A stretch of 44,439 nucleotides of DNA from Chitinophagaceae bacterium. GTDB lineage: Bacteria > Bacteroidota > Bacteroidia > Chitinophagales > Chitinophagaceae. The notes beneath the pieces were generated by a model. That model was not told the origin of the DNA. It ran no database searches and saw only the letters and a list, made by a program, of their open reading frames with translations. Below, in pieces: positions 43,580 through 44,439 of this stretch. Both the position numbers and the translations under genes were made by a program. The stretch spans positions 1 through 44,439 of the forward strand of contig JAHEZD010000045.1 in assembly GCA_023251255.1 (NCBI GenBank). Direction: 5' to 3'. Position 1 is the stretch's first letter. Every line of letters starts with the position of its first letter.

Positions 43580-43590
43580 GTAGTAGATTT

Positions 43591-43625
43591 TGGTGAAAGG
43601 TCAACGGTGAACAGTGGAAGGTACT
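43591..43625. repeat. Five 7-nt units of nGGTnaa type
   Basis: TGGTGAA, AGGTCAA, CGGTGAA, CAGTGGA and AGGTACT start at 43591, 43598, 43605, 43612 and 43619. The GGT (AGT once) keeps a strict 7-nt phase. It lies 12 nt upstream of cphA. Confidence 0.55.
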
Positions 43626-43991
43626 GTTGGTGTTACTTGTACAAACTAACACTGTTCATCAGTTAAATTGGAAGATAGGGAATTTAGTTTCGTGGGGAAA
43701 AATAAAATGAATACAATAGCTAAGAAACTGCCTAAAATAATTTCAATGGCTAATATGTGCTGCTTTTTGACTGTTCCGCATGCAATTGCGGGATTGAATT
43801 TTTCGCCTTAGGCATTAGACTATGGCTGCAAAGCCGATGGCTATCGGCTCTGCCTTGTCTCGCTCCTGCCTGAATGGTCAGGCGGGCAAAAATCATCAAC
43901 CTATTGTTCCATTAAATAATCTTAGACAGTTTCCAATAGAAAAATTCAATGGTACCAACAATTTATCGTTGAGCGTATATACATCCTTCAC
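43626..43991. other. Intergenic region with two hairpins
   Basis: No credible gene is seen; the 64-codon frame at 43822-44016 runs through hairpins and repeats. Two stem-loops stand out: AGCCGAT/ATCGGCT (43832-43838 and 43843-43849) and CCTGCCTGA/TCAGGCGGG (43865-43873 and 43878-43886). Confidence 0.5.
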
Positions 43992-44046
43992 TGATGGTAT
44001 AGTGATCCTACGTTGATCCTACGTTGATGATGGAGTGATGGTTAAC
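43992..44046. repeat. Five 11-nt units of TGATnnnnnnn
   Basis: TGAT starts at 43992, 44003, 44014, 44025 and 44036, spacing exactly 11 each time. Units two and three are identical (TGATCCTACGT); the others share only TGAT or TGATG. Confidence 0.8.
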
Positions 44047-44329
44047 TATTTGCAGCAATGTACCAACTTGTTTTGTTAGGGCCTGTAACTTCAGTATTTG
44101 ACATTTTGCGTAACATCAGTTTCTACGTAGTTTCCTATGGCAAAGCAATATATAGTGGCTTGTTAGGTAAAGATATTGAAGAACATTATTGATACCAACA
44201 AAAATACCCCTACTACTTTAATAGCCGTAGGAGGTATTTCCCATTGGTGGGAAGATGCTGTTACTGCCAGCCCAATAAGCTATTTTGATTGGACAGTGCT
44301 GTGGACAGTCCCTTTCCTGCACCAGTTCC
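44047..44329. other. Intergenic region without recognised gene
   Basis: AT-rich sequence; an imperfect hairpin at about 44203-44241 (AAATACC...GGTATTT with CTAC/GTAG inside) is the only structure I see. Confidence 0.4.
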
Positions 44330-44439
44330 TTCGCTTCTCCTTCGTGTCTTGTTCGGTACTCCTTCGGTGGTTCTTCGGTAGGGCTTCGGTCGTTACCGAA
44401 CAGGTACCGAACAAGGGGCGAACAAGTACCGAACAACGT
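44330..44439. repeat. Ten 11-nt units, TTCGG then CCGAAC orientation, self-complementary
   Basis: Units start every 11 nt from 44330 to 44429. Six begin TTCG (four of them TTCGGT), then four carry CGAAC (three of them CCGAACA). The switch at 44395/44396 makes the array an inverted repeat: TTGTTCGGTAC (44349-44359) pairs perfectly with GTACCGAACAA at 44426-44436 and also with the copy at 44404-44414. The central hairpin is TTCGGT, loop CGTT, ACCGAA. The array reaches the last base of the window and may continue. Confidence 0.85.

Follow-up and report, generated by a model that had tools for sequence, protein, structure and literature searches.

The run of short repeats at the right end of the window (the whole 44,439-nucleotide stretch of DNA that was analyzed, which is one entire contig, C125) represents a single member of a repeat family that is scattered through intergenic DNA. 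This family falls within a class of helically phased Bacteroidota arrays whose 11-nt lattice and inversion spacing are fixed and whose core differs by genome or locus. Arrays of this class often lie 5′ of genes of two protein families, DUF6266 and a second family that is described below. The existence of the family and of the class is well supported, as is the 5′ association with both gene families. With middling confidence, the best overall explanation is that the array in the window is a dispersed offshoot of operator arrays that are read cooperatively by protein on one face of the DNA. An earlier note on this DNA, whose interpretation is partly supported by these results, had not noticed the element family, the class of arrays with other cores, or the link to genes.

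The array at the contig end

The copy in the window (positions 44327..44439) is a cut-off member of a dispersed element of ∼132 to 137 bp, with six forward TTCG units, a TTCG-N8-CGAA inversion, and four of five reverse CGAA units. In the forward arm (44330..44388, plus strand), TTCG cores are located at 44330, 44341, 44352, 44363, 44374, and 44385; in the reverse arm (44397..44433, minus strand), CGAA cores are located at 44397, 44408, 44419, and 44430. Steps on the same strand are 11 nt and the step across the inversion is 12 nt, so that the strict 11-nt phase that had been claimed holds within each orientation and breaks at the inversion.

The longest chain in exact phase within the array was 6. 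In 1,000 dinucleotide shuffles of the 860-nt region at 43580-44439, chains of TTCG/CGAA reached a maximum of 2 and chains of any 4-mer a maximum of 3, and the maximum for any 4-mer in 50 shuffles of the whole window was 4. Thus, the phased run of six TTCG and then four CGAA units that the earlier note had described is confirmed and is beyond chance. The motif TTCGGTNNNNNTTCGGT, with up to two mismatches, had 12 matches in the window, compared to 1.73 expected and a shuffle maximum of 6. The 11-bp outer stem of the proposed fold was located (TTGTTCGGTAC / GTACCGAACAA). The earlier remark that the period is not codon-like and that the units are too short for CRISPR also stands: the arrays consist of 11-nt units with short, drifting spacers, whereas a CRISPR has long identical repeats and unique spacers that are all about equally long.

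Because the contig stops within the element, its right end is absent; relative to a 137-nt reference copy, ∼20 to 25 nt are missing. Over 107 nt, the copy is 93% identical to a copy on contig C75. The same intergenic region holds another 11-nt phased array at 43971..44057, ∼270 bp to the left of the TTCG array; its core is TGAT and its consensus is TGATCCTACGT. Queries for DUF6266, the second family, and the helix-turn-helix (HTH) protein discussed below gave no match in the window at an E value of 1e-4. The copy in the window is most aptly described as a truncated representative of the class that has become dispersed.

A dispersed element in the same genome

When the genome that contains the window (G000; 6.1 Mb, 188 contigs) was searched with a complete copy, 10 near-complete copies were found, including that in the window; these are the query itself and nine others with 86 to 97% identity. 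A degenerate copy on C35 (77%) and short matches, 30 to 32 nt long, on C53, C134, and C178 were also found. The earlier note had named the lack of other copies, or equally long runs in shuffled sequence, as grounds for giving up its claim; neither was observed, and copies are present both in this genome and in related ones. From the left, the copies have six forward units, the N8 center, five reverse units, and then a forward core, which at the right end sits in ...GTTCGGTAAA(ACACC or CTAAC). The left end is sharp and the right end occurs in two versions. On the left, the flanks mostly differ until TCCTTCGCTTC is reached. Exceptions are ∼300 bp on the right that are common to C161 and C168 and some flank common to C73 and C161. 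The number of units was constant in the eight uncut dispersed copies. By eye, the short forms, which are ∼38 nt long, resemble products of deletion between TTCGGT cores, and on C53 and C134 a further 11-nt array, with the core AGTACG, lies to the right of the short form.

C145 carries the only copy in this genome with a second-family gene in the flanks examined, and that gene has a different 11-nt array on its other side; no DUF6266 or HTH gene was found in the examined flanks of the copies in this genome. The DUF6266 gene on C143 has an upstream array of the TTCGAT type, not of the dispersed TTCGGT type, and no array was found at the DUF6266 gene on C85.

Dispersed copies with mostly unlike flanks are a property of miniature inverted-repeat transposable elements (MITEs). 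A rival explanation is that the arrays are selfish repeats of the REP or MITE type, mobilized by a transposase for which the 11-nt units are the sites, and that the association with genes reflects insertion preference. The 10 copies, the sharp left end, and the deletion-like short forms agree with this explanation, as does the lack of a clear overall orientation preference relative to genes (see below). PMC6006769 also describes atypical structures that flank genes of the TnpA-REP subclass 2.6 in Bacteroidetes, have copies elsewhere in the genome, and lack the GTAG foot. Against mobilization, no terminal inverted repeats or target duplications were recognized by eye in 14 copies and partial copies. 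The element of 132 to 137 bp, the ends of which have no GTAG foot in the copies inspected, is not the 20- to 40-bp palindrome with a GTAG foot that characterizes REP sequences.

A RAYT/Y1 transposase was evaluated as a partner by searching 20 array-bearing genomes and scanning 30 Y1 loci. PF01797 was present in 15 of the 20 genomes, and the five genomes with no match (G104, G183, G103, G171, and G015) included four with TTCG arrays. A lag-11 match was found at 4 of the 30 Y1 loci; two were inverted TTCG arrays beside DUF6266, and two had other cores (L310 and L318). The Y1 genes near DUF6266 and arrays in G179 and G099 (L305 and L315) carry the motif Q..HH, which PMC6006769 assigns to TnpA-REP subclass 1.2 and not 2.6. 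The combination expected of a REP or REPtron system, a Y1 gene in the genome and beside the copies, did not hold across this set. Because five array-bearing genomes lacked a Y1 match, the RAYT/Y1 partner was set aside. Insertion preference also does not obviously account for 5′ placement at two gene families or for a common lattice with different cores. It seems unlikely that the arrays are selfish repeats mobilized by a transposase.

Phase grammar and arrays with other cores

After removal of overlaps, 142 of 154 loci, covering 763 kb, were analyzed for the spacing between cores. Same-strand spacing peaked at 11, 22, and 33, forward-to-reverse spacing at 12 to 13, 23, and 34, and reverse-to-forward spacing at 9, 20, and 31. 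The search patterns contained the same-strand spacing and, in part, the forward-to-reverse spacing; none contained the reverse-to-forward spacing. The constraint on spacing of about one helical turn that the earlier note had suggested is supported.

Noncoding lag-11 arrays were also detected in DNA that was picked by coordinate: six in 400 kb of G000, one of which was a known TTCG copy, six in 400 kb of G137, where other lags gave 0 to 1 except for multiples of 11, and two lag-11 arrays in 200 kb of G023. None were found in the noncoding DNA of 200 kb of G026 or in 200 kb of Escherichia coli K-12. The cores of the lag-11 arrays were TATACTGACAC, GGTCYCTATAW, TCTCTATAAGG, and CCCATATC in G000 and ACTCTCAGATA and CCTAGG/CCTTCG in G137. 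Arrays in G251, G061, and L387 are perfect and presumably recent. In the noncoding DNA of G000, unlike that of G137, arrays with lags of 7 and 14 were frequent (12 and 14, respectively; L352-L368, e.g., L352:14273-14530).

Distribution across Bacteroidota

In the bacterial family to which the genome of the window belongs, the pattern TTCG-N7 ×4 was found in 43 of 294 genomes, representing 24 of 101 genera, and an inverted pattern with a free gap of N0-30 was found in 42 of the 294 (26 of 101 genera). Among the inverted matches listed, the gaps were 8, 19, and 30 or 7, 18, and 29, with the exceptions of 9 (twice), 12, and 1. Several genomes (G015, G023, G061, G154, G251, and others) also gave matches to the backward control, and these matches led to the recognition of arrays with a GCTT core, which were present in all nine of the genomes inspected, which had been picked for that purpose.

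A 20-base pattern (FFF-N8-RR) matched at least 115 stretches in genome_contigs (84,980 species). Among the titles listed, 113 name Bacteroidota, one names Candidatus Sulfopaludibacter, and one is an unspecified uncultured bacterium. Cultured carriers listed include Sphingobacterium, Pedobacter, Parapedobacter, Olivibacter, and Chitinophaga. The Candidatus Sulfopaludibacter match, at L217:5391-5439, is the one clearly non-Bacteroidota title and perhaps a chance match. A stricter pattern, applied to genomes sampled evenly across the phylum, was found in only 8 of 395 genomes (6 of 171 genera), and TTCG arrays are therefore sporadic.

A phage origin was considered and rejected. The inverted TTCG pattern was found in just one stretch of viral_contigs, and with a single DUF6266 protein as the query, patterns were matched in nine stretches, none of which encoded a relative. 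At L410:7301-7360 (IMGVR_UViG_3300037400_001217, viral_contigs), an inverted TTCG array lies between short open reading frames (ORFs).

Association with DUF6266 genes

Overall, the arrays have no clear preference of orientation relative to genes, which is not the behavior expected of pure operators. The 107 arrays in intergenic gaps were distributed among 49 tandem, 29 convergent, and 29 divergent gaps, compared to 58.1, 22.0, and 26.9 expected. Placement at terminators or promoters in general was rejected on this basis. When the ORFs located no more than 2.5 kb from arrays (643 ORFs, 79 genome labels) were clustered, a cluster with nine labels contained proteins of ∼212 amino acids, and all four members that were tested were assigned by Pfam to PF19781 (DUF6266). 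The largest cluster of array neighbors (11 labels) is another protein group.

The DUF6266 set comprised 37 loci from 32 genomes, in which only part of the matches are represented; the first 17 loci came from genomes chosen as array-bearing and the other 20 from an even sample of the family. A lag-11 array was present within 1.5 kb upstream at 23 of the 37 loci, downstream at 2, and on neither side at 13. In the same setting, arrays were found at 11 of 206 ordinary genes in G000 and 7 of 225 in G137 (3 to 5%). Of these 23, L438 (a poly-C run) and L447 (A-rich and distant) are doubtful, so that the convincing loci number 21 of 37. It was through their arrays that at least 7 of the 37 loci first came to notice; without them the count is 16 of 30, or 14 of 30 when the two doubtful loci are also subtracted. 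At L433, a TTCG array that is visible by eye was missed by the scan. The cores upstream of DUF6266 vary by genome and include TTCG, GCTATCAGGTA, GGTAA, ACCAAGCCCGC, and GGTTATAGTCA.

Within 700 nt upstream of DUF6266, lag 11 was found at 22 of the 37 loci and lag 10 at 13, with the poly-C locus L438 counted at both; within 700 nt downstream, lag 10 was found at 2 loci and lag 11 at none. The other lags, with the exception of lag 22, were found upstream at no more than 7 loci, with lags 8, 12, and 13 at 1 to 2 loci each, though lag 9 was found at 6. The array with a period of 10 is often nearer to the gene than the 11-nt array: in 46 loci taken because they bear arrays (27 DUF6266 and 19 second family), the median distance from the array end to the start was 202 nt for lag 11 (34 loci) and 114 nt for lag 10 (14 loci). 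Of the 27 array-bearing DUF6266 loci, 10 have a TAnnTTT[GC] box, the type of box that is the Bacteroidota −7 element, at 77 to 100 nt upstream of the start; this count has no chance control.

This selectivity for lag bears on neutral slippage, in which a replication process that favors 11-nt duplications would generate functionless arrays. The perfect, presumably recent arrays and the lag-7/14 arrays of G000 are what such a process might leave behind. It is at odds with the predominance of lags 11 and 10 upstream of DUF6266, with the 5′ placement at two gene families, with forward-to-reverse and reverse-to-forward spacing that is fixed across genera, and with the constant number of units in the uncut dispersed copies. 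For these reasons, neutral slippage appears quite improbable.

DUF6266 genes and arrays also co-occur across genomes. Both were present in 22 genomes, arrays only in 21, DUF6266 only in 21, and neither in 230 (P = 2.6e-10, phylogeny ignored); the corresponding numbers for genera were 21, 12, 8, and 60 (P = 1.6e-7, phylogeny ignored). Part of the genomes in the gene-array comparisons were chosen as array-rich, and 8 of 20 array-rich genomes had no DUF6266 match. A search by sequence for relatives of DUF6266 among solved structures gave a single match, with an E value of 0.96. An AlphaFold model of one DUF6266 protein, built from a six-row alignment (mean pLDDT, 75; pTM, 0.68), predicts a hairpin at the N terminus, followed by helices and, at the C terminus, by a sandwich that is fibronectin-III-like (best E value, 8.5e-4), a fold that does not reveal a function.

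The second gene family

The second family has the N-terminal motif GTIxDIxFYxMxG and was found in 13 of 15 genomes, all of which were chosen as array-bearing, with 50 matches in G243, 26 in G116, and 9 in G137. A lag-11 array was present within 700 nt upstream at 19 of 30 second-family loci (L452-L481) and downstream at 2. Four of the 30 loci provided the seeds of the profile, and without them the upstream count is 16 of 26; L465 is AT-rich, and L454 has just 84 nt upstream. The two members that were scanned had no Pfam, NCBIfam, or PHROG match. The only likeness between DUF6266 and the second family was in 30 N-terminal columns (probability, 39%; E value, 3e-4).

RNA hairpin or double-stranded DNA

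Another possibility is that the arrays are transcribed into a structured RNA, a long hairpin with the 11-bp repeat of an A-form helix, that acts or is processed. Single copies are predicted to fold strongly (z, −5.35 to −6.17), and the TTCG-N8-CGAA inversion center is conserved. Any inverted array, however, would fold in this way. Mirror identity was compared with that after 5,000 shuffles of the right-arm units within arrays. It was matched or exceeded by 2,102 shuffles in RUG737 (13 arrays), 4,822 in GWE2 (7 arrays), 3,013 in the other family genomes (6 arrays), and 1,817 in the other named genomes (13 arrays). In the genome of the window, where the 10 copies share descent, 239 shuffles reached it, a slight excess in favor of a hairpin. 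At the freely varying third spacer base in RUG737, agreement was 0.34 in mirror pairs (38 pairs) and 0.34 in nonmirror pairs (122 pairs).

Thus, in four of five groups there was no mirror excess of the kind that compensatory changes in a helix would leave, and the conserved hairpin that the earlier note had offered as its alternative found no support. Several of the arrays, as listed, are direct only, and a search of 13 loci at the Rfam gathering thresholds returned only DUF805b, which is unrelated to the array. The DUF805b cis-regulatory RNA (RF02914) was assigned by Rfam to L040:702-734. Apart from the weak value in the window's own genome, a maintained RNA hairpin is not supported, and structured RNA is a very improbable explanation of the arrays. 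A constraint on the double helix fits better; the lack of mirror excess in the four groups agrees with unit-by-unit recognition of double-stranded DNA.

A candidate binding protein and a possible mechanism

A gene for a small HTH_17-type protein is present at 9 of the 37 DUF6266 loci and was not found at 28. Six of the nine are divergent to DUF6266, and in four of these six pairs (L418, L419, L422, and L435) a lag-11 array lies within or next to the region that the two genes share. Neither 800 kb of coordinate-picked DNA nor any of the 30 second-family loci yielded the HTH gene; among the 30 Y1 loci it was found at one, and this locus also belongs to the DUF6266 set. HTH neighbors matched PF12728, one of three slightly under the cutoff, and the HTH_17-type protein had weak matches to BldC-family and excisionase profiles; the match of one neighbor to HTH_BldC (E value, 4.7e-4) was 20 bits against a cutoff of 77. 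According to PMC5859096, BldC binds direct repeats of 9 bp, which vary in number, as cooperative multimers arranged head to tail. Such a mode of action is proposed for the arrays by analogy, and membership among BldC-type operators is not claimed.

In the preferred reading, the arrays would present repeated sites on one face of double-stranded DNA that are bound cooperatively, and a candidate for the binder is the small BldC/excisionase-like HTH protein, which may multimerize along the array. The original place of the arrays would be upstream of the promoters of DUF6266 and second-family genes, where 11-nt arrays, frequently accompanied by a 10-nt array, are observed 5′ of the gene and might control its transcription. 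Dispersed copies such as that in the window may have spread from such upstream sites. Several observations weigh against this reading: the lack of a clear overall orientation preference, the 13 DUF6266 loci with no lag-11 array on either side, the array-rich genomes with no DUF6266 match, the many DUF6266 and second-family loci at which the HTH gene was not found, the 9-bp rather than 11-bp repeats of BldC, and the lack of a match to any of these genes in the window and beside all but one of the copies in its genome.

More tentatively, the arrays could constitute a class of cis-acting DNA that is set by the helical period. Each locus would have its own core, repeated at 10 or 11 bp and often in both orientations, upstream of DUF6266 and its partner family, and multimerizing proteins would read the lattice. 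Cores could then diverge, insulating paralogous loci from one another, and the element in the window would be a dispersed descendant of an operator.

The location of the arrays near two gene families suggests an undescribed kind of regulatory DNA. If so, several Bacteroidota orders carry regulatory or chromosome-structuring DNA that similarity searches have missed, because it keeps its helical period while its sequence varies. Uncharacterized gene families, one with up to 50 matches per genome, would gain a regulatory context. Direct experiments would be possible in cultured carriers, among them Pedobacter cryoconitis, Sphingobacterium multivorum, and Chitinophaga pinensis.

Comparison with known systems

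Sites spaced by 11 bp on one face of the DNA, as in the arrays described here, are found in the boxes of OmpR/PhoB-family response regulators and in the ParR/parC repeats. To our knowledge, those systems have few sites, at single loci and with one core, and neither long inverted arrays nor genome-wide dispersal is known in them. Among titles and abstract openings in the nonsubscription literature on 11-bp repeats, Bacteroidetes intergenic repeats, REP/RAYT, and DUF6266, none described this class of array.

Other intergenic repeats resemble the arrays in part. As described in PMC4596501, BrickBuilt, a MITE with a minisatellite in Porphyromonas gingivalis, is likewise a dispersed intergenic repeat array in a Bacteroidales genome, but it has a direct-repeat unit of 23 nt and a leader and tail with IS5-like terminal inverted repeats. 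The TAACTGA repeats of Beggiatoaceae and five Bacteroidetes are also short-unit intergenic arrays in scattered bacteria and differ in being heptamers of one sequence (PMC4679880). REP sequences with RAYT/TnpA-REP genes of subclass 2.6 are alike in being dispersed, palindromic, intergenic, linked to genes, and present in Bacteroidetes. The arrays are far longer, have an 11-nt lattice, do not need Y1, and are linked to DUF6266 and the second family; for subclass 2.6, the comparison is with the structures as described in the text of PMC6006769, and a match to those structures is conceivable.

The operators of the MerR-like regulator BldC in Streptomyces have sites of 9 bp (PMC5859096), compared to 11 or 10 bp with inversion in the arrays. 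They are similar to the arrays in consisting of direct repeats of variable number, and it is by analogy with BldC that the candidate binder may form cooperative multimers on the arrays.
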